From Dysidea avara (Eukaryota; Porifera; Demospongiae; Dictyoceratida; Dysideidae), in the NCBI RefSeq assembly GCF_963678975.1, contig NC_089273.1, positions 1,817,501 to 1,881,500 of the forward strand: DNA of 64,000 nucleotides, read 5' to 3'. A model generated the notes under the pieces. The model saw only the letters and a program-made list of their open reading frames with translations, was not told the DNA's origin and made no database searches. The position numbers were made by a program, and so were the translations under genes. Below are positions 1,661 through 28,411 of this stretch, one piece after another (position 1 is the stretch's first letter; each line of letters starts with the position of its first letter).

Positions 1661-2001
1661 AGATGGGAGTGGCAAGGCTCACGATCAATGGAGATCACAG
1701 CCAGGAGATGATGTTGCATTGGTCACATACCGGGAATGCCTGGAGTGATTCAGTCAGGAGCCCTGGTGCTACATATGACTAATACAGGGATAGATAATGT
1801 GGATGCTTGTAAGGAGGAAGCCTGTCACCTGGGCCAAAGGTCTGTTAAAGTGGCCCAAAGCCAAAGGCAAGCACACAAACAATGGTATCAGGTATCATGG
1901 AGGGTATAAATGGAAGTACACCTGTAGGTAGCTGAAAAATATAATATAAATAAATACAGATGAATAAAATAGAAAGAATAAATGAAATATTGTACTAGTG
2001 G
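1661..2001. other. Non-coding spacer between minisatellite and recombinase
   Basis: No frame of any length is open here. Degenerate echoes of the minisatellite core continue to about 1750. An A+T-rich stretch with TATA-like runs (1935-1990) lies just before the recombinase frame. It is probably what remains after loss of the RT-RNase H region. Confidence 0.4.
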
Positions 2002-3024
2002 GTGCCTGTTGTGTCTATTGCAGAAGTGTTTTCTCAAGGACTCTGGTTGGAGATAAGTGAGCTGCAGGATCCCATGCTGCGAGCACTGGCAGCAAAATTA
2101 CCAGGCACAGTACTCCACAGTCGGGCAGACTCTACAGTGAAGAAATATTGGTCAGCATTTAGGAGGTGGAAATCTTGGGCTCTGCAGCATAAGTTGCCAG
2201 TGCTTCCAGCCAAGGAAGCTCATGTGGCCTTATACCTCCAGTGGATAGGTGAAACAGTAAAATCCAAGTCAGCAGCGGAGGAGGCCTGCAATGCTCGGGC
2301 TTGGTTACACTCAACAGCAGGGTTGGTCTCTCCAGTGGCTTCACCTCTGTTTAAAGCCACACTTCAAGGGTTACAGAGGATGCTGGCTAAACCAGTGTGC
2401 AAGAAGGCTCCAGCCACAGTTGAGATGCTTGAGCGGATGGTGGTTGATGCGAGGCTGAGTGGTACTTTAGCAGATTTACGGTTGTCTACTGCATGCCTTA
2501 TTGCATTTGCTGGTTTCCTCAGGTTTAACGAGCTGATTCAGATCAAGGCGGAGGATATATCAATTAGAGATGACTCAATGGTGCTTAAGATCCCCAAAAG
2601 TAAAACTGATCGACTCAGAAAAGGAGACGAGGTAATCATTGCCAGAAGTGGTAAGGCAACTTGCCCGGTTGCCAGTTTGCAGGGATACCTCTGAAGAACT
2701 GGTACCTCTTTACAAAGTCAAAGTTCCCTGTTCCGGCCTATTTGTAAGACCAAGGCGGGTGAACGCCTGAGAGAGTTGGGTTGTATCAGCTATACTTGCT
2801 TGTGGGAACAATTCAAAAAGAAGCTCAGCAAGCTTGGATATAACCCAATGGAATTTGGACTACACAGCATGAGGGCAGGTGGAGGTACGAAGGCAGCTAA
2901 TGAAGGGATCCCAGACAAGTTGTTTAAACGCCACGGTCGCTGGAAGTCCGACAATGCTAAAGATGGCTATGTGGATGACTCAGTAGAGCGGAGATTACTG
3001 GTTACCAAACAGATGGGTTTATGA
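2002..3024 (+). pseudogene. Tyrosine recombinase of DIRS-like element, one in-frame stop
   Basis: One reading frame runs from 2002 to TGA at about 3022, broken only by TGA at 2692-2694. An N-terminal core-binding SAM-like domain (DSTVKKYWSAFRRWKSWA, about 2130-2185) is followed by the catalytic domain. Visible active-site residues are Arg in FLRFNEL (about 2518-2538), a Lys in the beta-hairpin region IPKSKTDR, the HxxR box in LHSMRAGG (about 2860-2885), His/Trp in HGRW (about 2932-2943) and the Tyr nucleophile in DGYVDD (about 2965). All five or six expected residues are present, so a single nonsense change is the only evident defect. The enzyme would integrate circular cDNA by site-specific recombination in the nucleus. 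The GTG at 2002 is not a convincing start; the first ATG in frame is near 2074. Confidence 0.85.
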
Positions 3025-5478: not shown

Positions 5479-7045
5479 CAAGTTCTGAATGTGAAAGGCA
5501 CAGTTATGTTAGAGCCTTCAGATTCACTGGACACCTCATTGAAGATTGTAGAGTTTCTTACACAAGTAAAAGAGGAGGATGGCTCTTCTGCAGTAGTGGT
5601 AGCCAATACTGGGAAGTCAGTTACAGAAAGGTAAGTTGTTGGAGTGGAGTTTGTTATTGCCAAAGATGAACACATACCTGTTGTTAGTGAAGAGTCTCTA
5701 GGCAGTAATTCCCCTACTAGATCAAGTACACCTGTTTAGCATCAGCCTACCATCTGAGAAAACAGTTGAACGAATTAAGTGGAGACTGCAACAGATGAGC
5801 AAGATGCTGAAAGAGTCTAACAAACTACTGTAAGAAGAGCACCTACTTTTAGAAGATCTGTTAGTGGAATATCATGACATATTTAGTCTAGATGAGGATG
5901 AGAGAGGGGAGACTGACCTGATTGAATTTGAGATTGACACCAGTGATGAGGCCCCAAGGAAACAACGTGTGAGAAGAACACATTTTGCTTCCTGCCAAGA
6001 GATAGCAAATCAGCTAGAGAGGATGCAGAGAAGTTGAGTGATCACACCATCCAAGAGCTCATGGTCCATTCATGTTGTCTTGGTCAGAAAAAGGGATGGA
6101 ACACTACGATTGTGTGTAGATTACTGTATTCTTAATTCTGTTACCAAACCCTTTATCAAGAAGCAACGACTTTTTAGACCAGTTGGAAGTGTTTTATGAC
6201 ATTAGATCTTACATCAGGGTATTGGAAAATTAAAGTTCATGAGAACAGCCAAGAGAAGACAGCATTTATTACCCACCAGGGATTCTATGAATTTAGAGTG
6301 ATGCCATTTGGTGTAATGAATGCACCTGCTGTGTTCCAGCGTTTAATGCAGAGACTATTGCATGAAATACAGTCTGACGGTGGCAAAGAATTTGTATCAG
6401 TCAATTTGGATGATGTAATAGTCTTTTCAGAATATTTGCATGATCATGTTGTTCACCTGAGTGCTGTGTTTAATTATTTAAAGAGAGCAGACTTGAAACT
6501 CAACCCAAATAAATGCAAATTTGATTGCGATGAGGTAGATTACTTGGGTCATCTGGTGATACCACCTGGATTGAAGCCAAATAACCAGAATTTGGATGCT
6601 GTAAGGAATTTCCCCACTCCCATTAACTTGAGGTAGTTGAGACAGTTCCTTGGGCTATTATCTCATTATCGGTGTTTTGTTATGGGTTATGCCATGATTG
6701 CTCACCCATTATGTTTACTCACTAACAGTTTTCCAATGCACAGCTGATTGTGAAGTAGCGTTTGAAAGTTTAAGGAGCAGGTTATTAGCAGCATCCGTGC
6801 TTGCCTATCCGGATTTCGTTAAGGATCTCATACTAGAGAGTGATGCTAGCAAACAGGGCTTGGGAGCCATACTGTCACAGTATCAAGATGATAAGAAATT
6901 ACATCCGGTAGCATATGCTAGCCGTTCTGTGTCCACAACTGAGTCCAACTATGCTATCACCAACCTAGATATGTTAGTAGTTTGGGCTGTTACACATTTT
7001 AGATATTCACAATGTGAATATCATAGCAGATCATGCAGCTGGTAA
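5479..7045 (+). pseudogene. Ty3/gypsy-type pol remnant: protease-RT linker, reverse transcriptase, RNase H
   Basis: Read across frameshifts, the plus strand gives the post-protease linker of Ty3-type pol (about 5479-5690), the pre-RT segment ending in DIFSLDEDERGETDLIEF (about 5875-5930), then reverse transcriptase. RT motifs include the first catalytic Asp in LDLTSGYWKIKV (6199-6234), GVMNAPAVFQRLM, and the Asp-Asp box in VNLDDVIVFS (6400-6430). The RNase H part is at 6735-7010 with LILESDASKQGLGAIL and the following PVAYASRS. At least four stops or frame changes interrupt it, and no integrase or LTR is seen. The residue before LDD is Asn rather than the usual Tyr or Phe. Confidence 0.85.
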
Positions 7046-17829: not shown

Positions 17830-18181
17830 CTAGAGGTTGTCTCCGGTGTAATGATGGCCAATCCAACTGATCTAAGCAACAGTCAGATGATCTGGACCAT
17901 TGTTTGCAAGCAGAATTCCAACGGCTTCCGCAAACTCATCTGGCTACCCTGCGCTGAACATTTTTCAGCTATTTGATGTCACCAGATGAGTGCAGGTACC
18001 ATACTGGAGAAACATACTCCAGTGTAGGACGGACAATACATTTATAGACTGCAGCTTTAACAGAAGATGGACATGTATAAAGAGAATGCCGAAAAATATT
18101 TAAGGATCTAGTTGCCTTTGCAGTGGTATACTTGACATGGTCCGACCACTTAAGGTGGGAATTGATCAAGATATTGTACAA
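17830..18181 (-). pseudogene. LINE C-terminal domain
   Basis: The continuation after RT reads LINSHLKWSDHVKYTTAKATR and IVRPTLEYVSPVWYLHSSG. Past a stop at 17969 it gives a decayed QRRVAR-VCG, Trp-rich end to about 17830. This is the usual C-terminal region of CR1/L2 ORF2. The element stops here without a recognisable 3' repeat. Confidence 0.75.
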
Positions 18182-18827
18182 CAGATTTGGTGGATAAAAG
18201 ATGATTATTTAATCTGTAGCTTGCAGGAGGAAGTGAATGTTTATAAGAAATGCAGATTGTCTCACATTTAGAAGGATTTAAGCTCAGTTGCCATTTATGA
18301 GACCATTCAAAAACTTTTGACAAATCAACTTGAAGCATATCTTGGTCTGACGAAAATACAATTTCCTTGTAGAGGGTTATGTCATCTGCAAACATTAGAA
18401 CTGAACTATGAGAAATAGATTGGTAGATATCATCAATGTACAATAAAAACAATAGAGGCCCAAGAACAGATCCCTGGGGCACTCCAGATAATACAGGTAG
18501 CCAGTTTGAAAATGATCCATTAATAATCACCCTCTGAGACCTCTTGGTAAGGAAATACTTTAGCCATCGTAGGAGATCACCTTTGATTCCTAAACATTCA
18601 AGTTTTAATAATAAACGGGAGTGAGGCACAGAGTCAAAGGCTTTAGCTAGGTCAAGAAAAATACAGTGTACTGAGTGACGCCTTTCCAGACAAGCTGCCC
18701 AATCATGAATTGTTGTCAGTAACAGACTGACAGTGGAACAATGACCATGGAAACCATGCTGATAGTTACTGATAAGATTGTGAGACTCCAATGCTTTTAA
18801 AAGTTGACAATGAATTAATCTCTCCAT
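18150..18827 (-). pseudogene. LINE reverse transcriptase core
   Basis: The RT fingers begin upstream in a broken frame (about 19100-18828) with a stop inside the SLPRD-VTANIVP region and the NYCPISLTS box. The open frame then shows QHGFHGHCSTVSLL, the first catalytic Asp in FLDLAKAFDSVPH, GVPQGSVLGPLLFLLYIDD, the FADD active site (MFADDITLY, about 18385) and the thumb segment LSLNPSKCE. All catalytic aspartates are intact in this frame; it is lost at the C-terminal end by a frameshift near 18170. Confidence 0.9.
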
Positions 18828-19112
18828 TACTTTAATTACAATTGATGTTAAACTAATTGGGCAGTAGTTGGATGAAAGATGACTATCACCTTTTTTATAA
18901 ACTGGTACAATGTTAGCTGTAACTCAATCCCTGGGTAAAGACCCAGTGGAGAGGGAAAATTGAAATAATTTGCTGAGTGGTGCAGCAAGAAAATCAGCAC
19001 CTATTTGAAGTAAATAGGCATGCAGGAACACAGTCAGGATCATAGGCTTTGTCTTTCTGGAGATTTACTAGCTCCTGATGAACTTCATCCATAGAAAAAT
19101 CTATTGAATTGA

Positions 19113-20192
19113 TCAGTTCAGGGTGGACTTCCAAGATTGACGCAGTTCAGAGAGACTGTTGTTATCTTCAACAGTAAAGACAGAATGAAAGAATTGGTTG
19201 AAAATGTTGGCCTTGCTACTATCATTTGAGACTGATGAATCATTATGTTTGAGAGGTGGAATTGGATGACGACGGCCCTTTATGGAATTAAGAAAATTCC
19301 AAAATTTCTTAGAGTTAGCAAAATATGACTTTGACAAATTGGTTACATGATCTGATGTGTCTTTTCTGGTTTGAGAGTGAACCAAGTTACTAATGGCTTT
19401 ATACTTGGCTTTCAACAAATCAGATCCAAGACATTTCATTTGGTGATAAACACGGCGTTTAACTCTTATCAAATGCAAAGTAGCTGATGTAAACCATTGC
19501 TTCATTTTAGACTGTTTCCATTTGACAGTAGAAATGACTGAAGTAGCTGTAGAGAAAAATAAGTCTTTCCAGTATTGCCAAGCGTATTCTATACCATTAT
19601 CAGTGGGAATACAGTTACAAGGAATATGTGATAAGACTTCCTGAAATTCATGAAGATCAGCTTTAGAGTAGTTCAATAAAACTCGGCTGGATTGTACAAT
19701 ATCGTCTGAAGACACAGACAAGTCAAACTCTACAGCATCATGATCAGATCCCGGCAAGTTATCAACAACTCTTACATTAGACACACAACTGGGATTGTTA
19801 GTAAGGATCAAGTCAAGGATATGATCACCTCTAGTTGGTGAAGAAACTAGTTGAGTCAGAAAATTATCATGAACAAGAGAACAAATTGTAGAATTAACAG
19901 GTGATGAAACAGTGGGAGTAGCAAGAGACCAGTCAATATTTGGAACATTAAAATCTCCACATAGAACAATAGAGTACTTGCCAGGAATGGTTGAAATGGC
20001 AGCATTCATTTCTTCTAAAATTGTAGCATCAGAATTTGGTGGATGATAGAATACACCAAACAATACTGGACCATCTCTAGTTTGAATTTGAATCCAAAAC
20101 ATTTCACAATGTGTTTCAAGGTCAGTTCTTCTAATGGCAGGAATTGAGGATTTAATAAAAATGAGTACTCCCGGCACCACCATGTCGATCAC
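19113..20192 (-). pseudogene. LINE endonuclease domain and linker
   Basis: The frame takes over from the N-terminal piece by one frameshift near 20175. Endonuclease/exonuclease/phosphatase motifs are visible: GVFYHPPNSD, the metal-binding GDFNVPNIDW (about 19935-19965), ILDLILTNN and SDHDAVEF (about 19735-19760). A long basic linker (YHQMKCLGSDLLKAKYKAI) and a segment with KSYFANSKKFWNFL lead toward RT. The frame ends at 19113 by stop; the coding sense continues in another frame to 18990. The endonuclease would nick target DNA to prime reverse transcription. Confidence 0.85.
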
Positions 20193-20819
20193 GATCTCTA
20201 CGAAAAGGTGTATATTGAGGTGGGCAAAGTTGAGAGCTTAAAATGGTATCATCTAAGAAAGTTTCTGTCACAGCAACAATATCAACACTGCTTGATGATA
20301 AATAACCCAGTAGATCATATTGTTTAGGAAACAAACTTCTGGCATTGAGACAAACACACTGTAAATCATGTTTATGAGGCTGACAGGAAACATCCATATC
20401 ACTGTGAATGCAGACACCACAAAACCATGGGTCTGAAGAAGGATTGTGAACCATGTCATCATATGCCGTTTCTGTAGTATATTGATCACAACTCACATGG
20501 ATCCATTTATTACATCCATCACAGCAAATAGCCTTGTCATCATCAGAAACCTGCTTTCCACACAATCCACAAGGAAAAATATCTGGTCCTGGGTTTAGGT
20601 GAATATCCCTGCAGAGAGATAGTAGTAGCTGAACAAAACTAGGACGTGCCTTCCAATTAATGAGCACCACACGAGGTGAATGAAATTCACTATAAACGCA
20701 AAGTAAGACTGAATTATAGTGTCACCAAACACAACTGCTTCTCTAGTAGGGAAGATCTGGGTCCGCCACAACATAAGTATCACCAATAGAACCCAACACA
20801 AAAAATGTCCAACCGCCAT
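20152..20819 (-). pseudogene. LINE N-terminus: signal-like segment, 2A-like motif, PHD finger, start of endonuclease
   Basis: The ATG at 20819-20817 begins MAVGHFLCWVLLVILMLW, a strongly hydrophobic leader. One frame change near 20720 joins it to the open frame 20670-20152. There QLLLSLC is followed by DIHLNPGP at 20607-20584, close to the 2A ribosome-skipping consensus (D-V/I-E-x-N-P-G-P) but with His for Glu. Next comes a PHD-like zinc finger (CGLCGKQV, CCDGCNKWIHVSC, WFCGVC, about 20570-20405). The beginning of the endonuclease domain follows, with the catalytic Glu in VAVTETF. In known LINEs such N-termini form a signal-2A cassette; that this copy ever used it is inference. Confidence 0.7.
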
Positions 20820-24213: not shown

Positions 24214-24492
24214 TATGTGATTGTTTAAAGATGAAAAGTACTGCTACAGTTTTAAAGTAACTAAGTTAAGTAACACTTCAACATGGTTCACCAAACACCA
24301 GTACACACAATCATACAAAGAAAACTAGTATATTCTATTACTGTAAGACTTCTTTAGTTATATGGAACCACCGGAAATAACAGTGAAGAGAACTTAGAAC
24401 TATAGAGAATTTTCATCGCGTGAGCAATATTACATAATTTATTAAAGCTGCCATATTGGAGCACCACTGCTACTTTAGAACAATGACTTAGG

Positions 24493-26081
24493 ATGTCTGA
24501 AGCAGCAGATATTACTTTATCATCGTATGCAAGTAGTTTGTCAGATGAAGCGAAGTCTCATCACTTACATAAGATCGGAATAATTGGTGGAATCAGTCCC
24601 TTCTGTACCAGTACGCTTGGATATCTCGAAAGAAGTGACGATTGCCCTCCTGTGGACGCTTGTGACTTGCTGTCGTATTTGGTGCTCAGGACTAGTTTTA
24701 TAACAACAGAACAGTTTGTAGCAAGAAAGGGACTAGAGGCATACAATTAATTTGTGTGTGGCTGGGTAAAAGAATTTGTTACAACTGGAAGAGTAAGGAA
24801 TAATCCACAAATTGAGTGTAACTTGTCGGTTTGTTTGCAGGTATTTCACTCCCAACAATTGAGTGACACTCCTCTGAAGTGTTGGCTGATAACAGAGCAA
24901 GATGGTCAAGTCTGTTGTGCACACTGTAACTGCATGGCATGGCTTGGTGAAGTGTGCACTCATGTAGCTGCTGTGCTGTTCTACTTGGAAGCAGTTAATA
25001 GAATTGAAGGAGGGAGAACCTGTACTGATGGCCAGTGTGCTTGTATATTGCCATCCTCACTGAAATCAGCACAGTGTCTACCAGTTAAGGACATTGATTT
25101 TACTTCTGCACGAGGTAAAAAGCATAAACTAGATGACATAATCGATGGGTGTGATAGTCCTAAGGAGAAATCTAAAGAAGGCATAAGGTCAACAAATGAA
25201 GAATTAGCACAGCTTTTTAATACCTTGAGTATTACTGGGTCAAAGTTTGTGCTATCAGTTGTCTCAGAGCATTCTGATACATTTCTACAATGTCATTGTC
25301 AACTTTCCCACAGCCTATTACTTCACTTCAGAAGCCAGAGTATGCTACATTTGAATACCACCTTTTACTTGATGTATGTAAAAATGTTTCACTTACTGTT
25401 ACTCTTGAAAAGGCTGAGAAGGTTGAGGCTGAAACGAAGAAACAAGCAAATTCCAAGCTTTGGTTTAAGTACCGAGCTGGAAGAGTTACTGCTTCCAATA
25501 TGAAAGTAGTGTGCCACACAGATAGTATGAATCCATCAAAGAGCTTTGTTATAAGAATTTGTTACCCTGAGTTGTTTGTATTCAGCAAGCAAACAGATTG
25601 GGGGAGGAAACATGAGAAGCTTGCAGTAGAGGAGTATGTAAGGCTGCCAAGAAAGATCATCAGAACCTACAGGTTTCAGAAAATAGACTGTTTATTAATC
25701 CAAGATGGCCACACATTGGAGCTTCCCCTGATAGTATTGTGCAGTGTGACTGTTGTGTCAAGTGTGTACTGGAAGTGAAGTGTCCTTACAGTCACCGTGA
25801 GGATAGCATTGAAGATGCAGTAGACAATGATGGTCAGTTTTGTCTGGTCAAGCAAGGTGATTCATTTCATCTGAATCAGAGTCATGCTTACTATTACCAA
25901 GTATAAACGCAGATGTTTGTTTGTGGTGTACTGTACTGTAATTTTTGTTTGCTCACATTTGACTCTTCTAAGAAGGAACCTAGTCTGTATGTTGAGCACA
26001 TTAAAAGGAATGAATCGTTTTGGGATAGCTGTGTGCTGAAATCTGAGCAGTTCTTTGTCACTTGCTTGTTGCCAGAGATTT
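24493..26081 (+). pseudogene. SWIM zinc finger and YqaJ-like exonuclease protein of ISL2EU element
   Basis: From ATG 24493 the frame runs to TAA 24748-24750, which stands where a Gln codon (CAA) would keep the frame (AYN, stop, FVCGWVKEF), then continues to about 25285. The SWIM finger is HCNCMAWLGEVCTH (about 24918-24965). After a frameshift near 25290 the nuclease starts: WFKYRAGRVTASNM (about 25465-25505) and WGRKHEKLAVEEY. After a second shift near 25700 come the catalytic boxes GASPDSIV and LEVKCPYS (about 25720-25795), matching the D...E-x-K centre of the YqaJ/lambda-exonuclease fold. A further stop near 25905 precedes a helical tail. Its role in transposition is unknown; end-processing by the nuclease is plausible. 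Confidence 0.8.
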
Positions 26082-26189
26082 AGGCTACTGGTTTATGCGG
26101 CCAGCTGTAACATCATCCAATGATCTAGACGGGTCATCGACTAGTAGTCAGTCTGGAGTTGCAGAAGGACAGAGTGCTATCAACCAATG

Positions 26190-26393
26190 AAGATGATACG
26201 TTTTGTATCTGTAGTGGTCCAGATGAGGGGAGAAGATCTGCTGTAATAATAATGACTGTAAAATAAAGTGGTTCCATCTCAAATACTTGAATATGAGTAG
26301 TAGGTCTATACCAAAAGGAAAATGGTACTGTCCCAATTGCCGAAACAGTAATAAACATAAAGGAAAAGACAAGACAAGCAATAAATCGCAATA
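26190..26393 (+). pseudogene. PHD finger tail of the YqaJ protein
   Basis: Two frames joined by a shift near 26240 give TFCICSGPDEG, then DCKIKWFHLKYL, then KGKWYCPNC. This is the cysteine-histidine ladder of a PHD finger with one Cys position read as Tyr. It ends at TAA near 26393, about 40 bases from the stop end of the opposing transposase gene. PHD fingers bind histone tails; in such elements they may steer insertion, which is inference. Confidence 0.7.
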
Positions 26394-26429
26394 ATTATAA
26401 TTTACTGATTCATGTATGTAATTATAATG

Positions 26430-27140
26430 TATCATTTCTAAAGTTGTTATTCAAATGGTACAACTGACACACCAATACATTGTTTAAGGCACAGCATACT
26501 CATACTATCCAATCAATGGCTGGGATTTCTTCTCCCACTCTCTTTGTTACAATATTGATTGGAATAATACCACGCAATATAGAATATTTTTGGCGAACAC
26601 AACCAATAACATGCTCCACATGAATTCTAACATTGACTATCTTCCTAGTGCTTTCTACCTCTGCTGCTGACAACTCCTGCTTTCCCTTTGTGAAAGCAGT
26701 TGTGCCTGCATCATAGCCACTGACTCAGCAATGTCAAATCCTCTATCAGCCAAGACTATATCTCCTGGTAATAATTTTTTTAAATGCCACAGTGTTCAGT
26801 GAGATGTTTGTCACTCACTCGACCTTCCCAACATCCGAACCTTAAGCATCACAAACATGAATTCCTGAAAAGGAAACAACTTGGTGATCCCATCACTTGG
26901 TAAGGTTTTATGGACATGCTCAAAAATAGCCTTTAAGATTTTAAAATTCGGTAAAGCAGAGTATGAACTCATGGCATCATCAGTTGCATCAAACAGACTT
27001 TCTTCTGTAAAGGGACCTCGTAAATGCTTCTCATTCATCAGTTGCAGTTGTTCATTCAAAGAATTGATGGCTTCTTTACTATCAGCAAGTTCTTTCTCCA
27101 GCAAGGCTACTTTGCTGGAACACTCACAATCACTTGACAC
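26430..27140 (-). pseudogene. DDE_Tnp_4-type transposase, internally deleted
   Basis: The frame 27140-26811 shows a coiled-coil stretch (ALLEKELADSKEAINSLNEQ), an acidic linker and the helix LFPFQEFMFVML that precedes the catalytic core. It then jumps, near 26822, directly to the second half of the core: LLPGDIVLADRGFDI (about 26770-26728, second Asp), a further frame change, and the helix with the final acidic residue in [18 protein letters not shown] (about 26640-26590). The section with the first catalytic Asp is absent, a deletion of some hundred or more residues, so the enzyme cannot be active. The gene ends near 26430. Confidence 0.8.
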
Positions 27141-27640
27141 CTTTGCCTTAAATTATTGATGTGCAATTTCAATTTGCTCGCTTGCAATCAGCTTCTCTTC
27201 TTCAGAAATAATCAAATCAATTTCATTACCCATTACATTGGGTAGCACTTCTTCCATTTCCTGGTTCACATTGGTCTCTTTCCCATATTCATTTATACCT
27301 CTCAATTGCTGCCCTCGAAAAGTTTTCACTGTTACTACCTCTGTGTCCAAGGTGCAAAGTTGATAGCCAGTTTGGGCTTGTTTGGTAGTACAGTCTTTCC
27401 AGACCAAAAATGCTTCAAACAAATTCTGTACTTATCTAGAGCATGAATATTGAGGTCTTCTCTATGAATAACAGCAAGATACCCATCTTGTCGACGTTTT
27501 CTTAACTCGAAACTCTGTCATGAACTGCTGGTATTCTATGAAAGGAAATGATTTTGTCTTGGTTGCTGCCAGGACAAAGATCAGTTTGGTTATTACAATC
27601 ACATACGACAAACTGAACTATTGTTATGATTGAGGTCACC
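27141..27640 (-). pseudogene. THAP zinc-finger N-terminus of the ISL2EU transposase
   Basis: Starting about 20 bases inside the right inverted repeat, the minus strand reads VQFVVCDCNNQ, ISFHRIPAVHD, and after a frameshift near 27515 YRICLKHFWSGK. These are the zinc-binding cysteines, the FHRxP box and the C-x2-HF box of a THAP domain. Stops near 27522 and 27313 and a shift lead to the linker frame 27422-27153 (VLPNVMGNEIDLIISEEEKL). THAP fingers bind the element's own ends. Confidence 0.75.
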
Positions 27641-27717
27641 CTTAGTTGAGATTGCGGTGCTCCAATATGGCAGATTTAATAAATTACGTAATTCTGTTCA
27701 CGAGATGAAAAATCTCT

Positions 27718-28411
27718 GAACTACGTATATTAAGTGGATAACGAACAGGTCTATAAATGAATGGGTCATGGACATAGTTTTTCACATTAAATTTTGCTGT
27801 AAACCTGTGAAACAATAAGATGAATATATTTCGTATGAATAATGAAAAATAATATGAAGATGAACATTTTGATACACATTTTCAATATTTGAATGTCCCC
27901 AAATTTCACCTAGCTCTTTTCTTTTTCTTTTTCAAAACAATACCATTTCTCTAAGTTAATAAATCTTCTGAGTGTTCCAAGTCTGCTATTTAAAGTGGTT
28001 TTCAGGTTATAGTATTAGGAGTTTGCAAAAATTCCAAAGCAATCCCTATTACGAACTATTACCATGGTTCACAATAGAATAATTATGCAGCACTACTAAA
28101 TATGCTAAACCACAAGCAGTGTGAGAAATTATACTCAGATGATACCAGAAAATTTCATAAATATTCAAGCAATTATGGAAAATATTGTGAAATGTACTCT
28201 TATTACAGAACACCCATGAGCCTTTATCCACTTTCACTTCATCCCTTGGGGGTGTTCTTATAGGCTTTCTAGCCTCCTACTCTCCCCAGTGATTTTTTTC
28301 ACAAATTAATAAAAATTTAATCAATTGCTTCATCACGTAATGTATGAGATTAGCAGTATTATAATTTGATAAAATTACATCATTGTGGACATTAACTAGA
28401 ACTATACTTAC
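27718..28411. other. A+T-rich DNA without a recognised gene
   Basis: Lies between the ISL2EU element and the ankyrin exon. I looked for further ankyrin exons on the minus strand and found none with both splice sites and an open frame. Confidence 0.35.

Follow-up and report, generated by a model that had tools for sequence, protein, structure and literature searches.

ISL2EU elements form one group of the PHIS superfamily of DNA transposons. In the available text of two descriptions, they carry two open reading frames (ORFs), one for a YqaJ protein and one for a transposase with THAP, helix-turn-helix (HTH) and DDE parts (PMC4482050; PMC9179366); the former also records AT duplications and reports that no function is known for the second ORF, and together the accessible passages give terminal inverted repeats (TIRs) of 6–259 bp, usually starting with GG, and the target site A/AT/T (slashes mark the duplicated AT). 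The present analysis concerns an element of this kind in the sponge Dysidea avara, lying in a window of 64,000 nucleotides (C2:1817501-1881500) of a 550.8-Mb genome in 108 contigs, whose content is eukaryotic, with transposons and an ING gene present; C-numbers denote contigs of this genome, L-numbers its loci, and coordinates without a prefix are positions in the window.

Positions 24404-27717 hold an ISL2EU-type DNA transposon in which a YqaJ-nuclease gene on the plus strand is convergent with a THAP/DDE_Tnp_4 transposase gene on the minus strand. Set against the published description, the locus is almost certainly a dead copy of an ISL2EU-group transposon with the architecture of its relatives: both have two ORFs (THAP/HTH/DDE transposase; YqaJ-exonuclease protein) and an AT target duplication, and the TIR is 62 nt here and ~22 to 264 in the relatives. 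An initial annotation had called it an ISL2EU-type transposon with SWIM, YqaJ and PHD on one gene and THAP and DDE on the opposed gene, which our data supported, the first module being a SWIM-like motif. As predicted from its sequence, the accessory protein joins an N-terminal domain to a SWIM-like zinc motif, a lambda-exonuclease-type YqaJ domain and, in one clade, an ING-type PHD finger. It is in the SWIM-like motif and the ING-type PHD finger or OTU domain (with SAP in 2/20 loci) that this protein differs from ISL2EU as described in the text available; YqaJ with THAP/DDE is already known ISL2EU anatomy, and the added modules provisionally extend the published description, since a literature search for SWIM, PHD finger or OTU (in transposons) with YqaJ gave nothing relevant, Repbase Reports and most subscription papers lying outside its range. 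The features of the window copy are:

24404..27717, no strand assigned: whole ISL2EU-type element, decayed copy (paired ends; 97% sister copy C2:3917128-3920452)
24404..24465, plus: left TIR (same ends in the C9, C4, C14 and C15 copies)
24493..24792, plus: exon 1 of the YqaJ gene, a conserved N-terminal domain of ~100 aa with one in-frame TAA (73% identity to L013 over 109 aa)
24793..24840, plus: putative 48-nt intron, GT..AG (AG/GT acceptor in relatives)
24925..24963, plus: SWIM-like motif C-x-C-x7-C-x-H (read from the sequence; Pfam SWIM E 2.4)
25461..25927, plus: YqaJ nuclease domain in two frames, D..ExK and QxQ motifs legible (PF09588 E 5.8e-7 and 1.9e-9, the second scored with TAA read as X)
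26204..26340, plus: frameshifted PHD finger of ING type in which Tyr stands for one of the Cys ligands (PF00628 E 3.3e-4 on 26227-26391; ING type assigned via L014)
26476..26833, minus: C-terminal part of the transposase (Pfam DDE_Tnp_4 E 1.2e-11; L015 match)
26832..27332, minus: middle of the transposase, reaching the start of the HTH region (L015 residues 110-276, E 2e-77)
27271..27630, minus: THAP end of the transposase, with stops (tblastn, L015 residues 1-127, E 8e-28; Pfam THAP E 0.072)
27656..27717, minus: right TIR (pairs with the left arm)

The inverted ends, previously given as 65 bp, measured 62 nt and were 89% complementary (blastn E 7.7e-17 in a 12-kb stretch). The window copy is heavily decayed, a point absent from the initial annotation: the frames of both genes are broken, leaving a dead relic, and when the proteins of L015 were mapped on the window the YqaJ protein was spread over three plus frames, stops included, and the transposase over three minus frames. 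About 116 transposase codons (L015 residues ~277-392) are missing between 26832 and 26833, a gap at which the C9 relative has 333 additional bases (query 2430/2431); the DDE domain, which starts at residue 341, thereby loses its first part and presumably the first catalytic Asp, and we place the other two triad residues, D and E, within 26476..26833. The window copy is not autonomous in the sense of having both ORFs intact; long open frames for both genes are found in relatives such as L010, L012, L017, L019, L020 and L022. Of its domains, Pfam recovers YqaJ and DDE_Tnp_4, whereas the PHD piece scores 21.1 bits against a cut-off of 24 and THAP and SWIM reach only the E-values listed above. In the better-preserved relatives YqaJ, DDE_Tnp_4 and HTH are clear and THAP and PHD mostly so, with DDE_Tnp_4 and HTH_Tnp_4 each in 10/10 of the relatives scanned and THAP in 8/10 at E<=1 (7 above cut-off). 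Scans of the window for tRNA and Rfam families gave 0 hits.

Twenty loci, hand-chosen among the 150 YqaJ candidates that were scored out of 622, were used to follow the accessory gene across its relatives. All 20 aligned ORFs have a YqaJ Pfam match (the loci having been picked through a YqaJ search), and the two genes are convergent in 19/20, L028 being without an ORF of >=150 aa bearing a THAP or DDE motif. SWIM and PHD on one YqaJ protein, a pairing which the initial annotation had singled out, recur across these relatives as a CxCx(n)CxH motif in open frame (18/20 loci) and a PHD finger (15/20), but the SWIM profile stays below its cut-off (PF04434, best E 0.0091). All 10 relatives tested gave a match to exon 1, L011 a weak one (E 0.001); L009 and L015 have this exon interrupted. 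The intron, whose splicing is deduced from sequence, is of phase 0 and ends CAG/GT ahead of the SWIM exon, and an AG/GT acceptor precedes this exon in the 8 relatives showing the V.HSQ anchor.

The invariant columns of the YqaJ domain (R..TAS, E278, D317, E331-x-K333, Q373-x-Q375-x-Q377) make up what we take to be the active-site pattern of the lambda-exonuclease-type fold. Matches of the YqaJ core in PDB were mimivirus R354 (5yet/5yeu, E 2e-5), an exonuclease (3syy, 2e-4) and lambda exonuclease (1avq, 0.07), and the phage match was a RecE-like exonuclease (phrog_434, E 1e-17). The YqaJ core carries the same motifs as lambda/RecE/LHK-type exonucleases and mimivirus R354. Relatives are encoded by 351 stretches of viral contigs, which differ in that the best 80 loci match mostly the nuclease core (residues ~200-490, 24–35% identity); none of the match ranges reported for these 80 extends to the SWIM position, no search for PHD or SWIM around them having been made.

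A PHD finger lies just downstream on the same strand in at least 96/150 scored YqaJ matches (two PHD queries), a lower bound as one of the two PHD match lists was used whole (150) and the other by 16/150; the combination, which had been thought rare, is therefore not rare within this genome. With the L014 PHD as the only query, a PHD follows 80/150 YqaJ matches at a distance of 118-658 bp on the same strand, and 0/150 have one in any other geometry within 2.5 kb. A further 70 PHD matches are without a listed YqaJ, and all of the 14 hand-picked among them have YqaJ upstream by hidden Markov model; together with the absence of other geometries, this rules out the PHD as a chance neighbour. Nor are the PHD matches mostly host ING genes, as L147 is a host ING gene and at least 96 others stand behind YqaJ (further host ING genes were not individually sought). 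An OTU domain was found 685-760 bp downstream of 6/150 YqaJ matches and in no other geometry (148 OTU matches), and 48/150, including the decayed sister at C2:3.92, have neither PHD nor OTU among the matches listed. A sister clade has OTU instead of PHD (L022:3594-6905, L023:3582-6878, and L021 near 5900-6200, where the OTU match is downstream in a different frame); SAP and OTU stand on one 1104-aa protein in L022 (3594-6905) and likewise in a second member, each domain being present in 2/20. Genome-wide, 230 candidates for OTU were counted, with 148 scored matches, and the long open frames in which many of them lie suggest further OTU-bearing mobile elements.

A DNA search of the genome with the element returned 109 matching pieces. 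C2 holds it four times, at 1.84 (the window), 2.46, 2.67 and 3.92 Mb, the last full-length at 97% and those at 2.46 and 2.67 Mb interrupted internally by ~5 kb of other DNA; since both flanks of all four match at 92-97%, they represent one insertion, segmentally duplicated with its surroundings. The same ends with other flanks were found at C9:34.9, C4:40.85 (duplicated at 41.23), L013, L015, C14:0.898 (internally shortened) and the C15 pair 3.11/2.93. A search for relatives with both ends and both genes, as a multi-copy family of the kind first envisaged should have, found that C9:34.9, C4:40.85, L013 and L015 match the window element at both ends and in both genes; neither a loss of the plus-strand gene from other copies nor the lack of a family sharing both ends and both genes was seen. 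L003-L006 are 98.4-99.8% identical to L009 over the YqaJ side (up to 100% per segment) and together with it occupy four chromosomes in all, the alignments ending at the left TIR with the right end outside these loci; L002 is the same place as L009. These other families are recent.

AT duplications, as had been proposed for the borders, flank 16/19 insertions checked (L016, L018, L022, L023 and L028, whose ends are unclear, stand outside this table); the window insertion, L011 and L024 did not conform. The site is T/AT/A in 10/16 AT insertions and A/AT/T in one, L027, which lies in a tandem array where neighbouring units read CAATTG against CAAT-element-ATTG, a near-empty site that addresses the alternative that the AT on both sides is part of the repeat. 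L015 lies within a short repeat and its border is ambiguous by 2 bases. L011 has no flanking repeat, and the window insertion has no AT duplication in its own flanks. The window insertion shows GAACTAT at 24397-24403 and 27718-27724, exact in 2/4 of the duplicated copies and differing at one base in the remaining pair, to which the window belongs; L024 is bordered by TACCTAT on both sides, and these two 7-bp repeats both end in CTAT. Element ends mostly begin with AG, L013 and L021 each having GG at one of their ends, so that both the ends (AG not GG) and the prevailing T/AT/A site differ from published ISL2EU, although GG is there only ‘usual’ and the difference does not exclude membership.

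The PHD finger of L014, searched against PDB, matched ING5 best (E 5.9e-19), then ING3, ING4, ING2 and other ING proteins, with the first non-ING match at E 1.2e-5; 20 ING or yeast ING-like sequences outrank any other PHD. By this search the transposon PHD is classed as ING-type, C4HC3, although across members Pfam PHD reaches E<=0.1 in 8/20 and PHD-1st_NSD in 8/20. The host ING gene L147, the best match to ING5, is 71% identical to the ING5 PHD (Pfam ING E 7.3e-10) and retains the pocket Tyr; the transposon PHD was likely captured from a host ING gene. In ING2, as far as the accessible parts of the two papers go, Y215 is required to bind histone H3 di- or trimethylated at K4 (PMC3395697), and W238 and M226 are part of the cage (PMC4225485). 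We compared 29 transposon PHDs by eye (15 from L009-L028 and 14 from L133-L146, counted as sequences, with several near-duplicates). At the Y215 position, 12 have Glu (L014 among them) and 3 Asp, against 3 with Tyr (L016 among them), 1 with Phe (L139) and 10 with other residues, so that, compared with ING PHDs (PDB 3c6w etc.), it is aromatic in 4/29 and Glu/Asp in 15/29. The cage Trp is kept in 29/29, the extraction pattern for part of them requiring W-F/Y-H and most ligands and hence being no test of those; L140 and L146 failed the pattern and were read separately. From these substitutions we infer a changed H3K4 preference. The fuller proposal is that an ING-type PHD entered one ISL2EU clade in a single capture and that its histone pocket diversified afterwards, such that families may read different H3K4 states; taken jointly, this is doubtful. 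It draws attention to the replacement of the cage Tyr in most families, often by Glu/Asp, while the Trp and the fold were kept; were it true, a lambda-type exonuclease and a transposase would be steered to, or away from, particular chromatin, and transposon ING-type PHDs would far outnumber host ING genes in this genome.

In the transposase tree all 13 PHD rows fall on one side of a 100/100 branch, and the main groups agree between the transposase and YqaJ trees, which argues that the gene pair and the PHD travel together; the two genes seem to do so as far as their trees go (both trees are without L028, and the transposase tree also without L024 and L025; L021, which has an OTU match downstream, carries the label ‘none’ in them). 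In diverged pairs such as L012/L014 synonymous sites are near or past saturation; for that pair nonsynonymous divergence (dN) is 0.23 for SWIM, 0.24 for YqaJ and 0.13 for PHD against 0.72 for the YqaJ-PHD linker (the PHD rates cover loci other than L028). All eight PHD ligands are kept in 14/15 PHDs from L009-L028.

What the accessory protein does can be outlined only tentatively. The transposase would bind the inverted ends through its THAP domain and insert the element at AT-centred sites in a cut-and-paste manner. The accessory protein may work with it, its predicted nuclease resecting DNA ends, most likely at the donor-site break, after which repair templated by the sister chromatid would restore the element there and so raise copy number. 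Enzymes of the lambda type digest DNA in the 5'-3' direction, and proteins with SWIM are found in homologous repair; the SWIM-like motif might help to hold DNA or repair partners, and the PHD would dock the complex on histone H3 tails. We give this combination of an end-resection role with PHD docking a probability of roughly 40%. In its favour are YqaJ in 20/20 ORFs, the invariant motifs, the exonuclease matches, the convergence in 19/20 loci, the transposase tree, the low dN of the domains in L012/L014 and the near-identical copies on several chromosomes. Several results weigh against it: SWIM is under the Pfam cut-off everywhere, with E<=0.1 in 2/20 members, and is recognised by the conserved motif; neither the OTU loci nor L024/L027 yielded a PHD, so that this finger is not required by every such element; the YqaJ tree taken by itself needs 2 changes for the PHD label and does not keep the PHD rows together, the branch of L018 being very long; close pairs, with few changes, give a mixed omega of 0.30, 0.62, 0.66 and 1.63 (the last for L022/L023 overall, from 7 changes); and the PHD ratio of L025/L026 is 1.3.

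It is possible, though somewhat unlikely, that the accessory protein serves chiefly to bind the ends and to aid nuclear import, like the Harbinger Myb-like protein, the nuclease being secondary or trimming ends at integration and the zinc modules binding the inverted ends or chromatin. The accessible text on Harbinger reports that its second protein is needed, attaches to the TIRs and gives the transposase access to the nucleus (PMC9179366), and that on PHIS elements gives a Myb/SANT DNA-binding protein as the second ORF in four other groups (PMC4482050); here, however, no part of the protein is more invariant than the nuclease residues, and the transposase has its own HTH (10/10) and THAP (8/10). 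A role in counter-defence or host interference, with the nuclease directed at other DNA, OTU stripping ubiquitin and PHD steering to marked chromatin, would fit an exchangeable C-terminal PHD or OTU, which resembles a variable host interface, but the protein is not known to have such a target and a free exonuclease would presumably harm the element's own host, making this distinctly unlikely. That SWIM and PHD are passengers, gained once and carried without function, is hardly probable: a single PHD ligand is lost in the window copy and in L026, and one or two are lost in 5/12 further PHDs from more decayed loci (L134, L136, L141, L142, L144), yet the ligands persist in diverged families when the adjoining linker sequence does not. 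As for the window locus being a domesticated host gene and not a transposon, four related copies on one chromosome might suggest it, but the matching C2 flanks (one duplicated insertion) and the breakage of both frames effectively rule it out.

The presence of a conserved ING-type histone reader, with OTU in a sister clade, makes the published question of the second ORF testable. It also supplies a case parallel to RAG2, a transposon-derived PHD protein working with a DDE recombinase: in the available text on RAG1-RAG2/TransibVDJ (PMC4411706), a DDE-type transposase is likewise paired with an accessory protein carrying a PHD finger, but the transposase belongs to another superfamily and RAG2 is a Kelch-PHD protein and not a nuclease, so that the analogy is one of working only.

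Elsewhere in the window, a non-LTR (long terminal repeat) retrotransposon near the element at 18153-20721 (minus strand) has its own PHD finger (Pfam E 8.3e-7), an endonuclease and a reverse transcriptase. An ORF at 1999-2694 (plus strand) resembles by eye a tyrosine recombinase of DIRS/Crypton type, with no Pfam match at E<=0.01.

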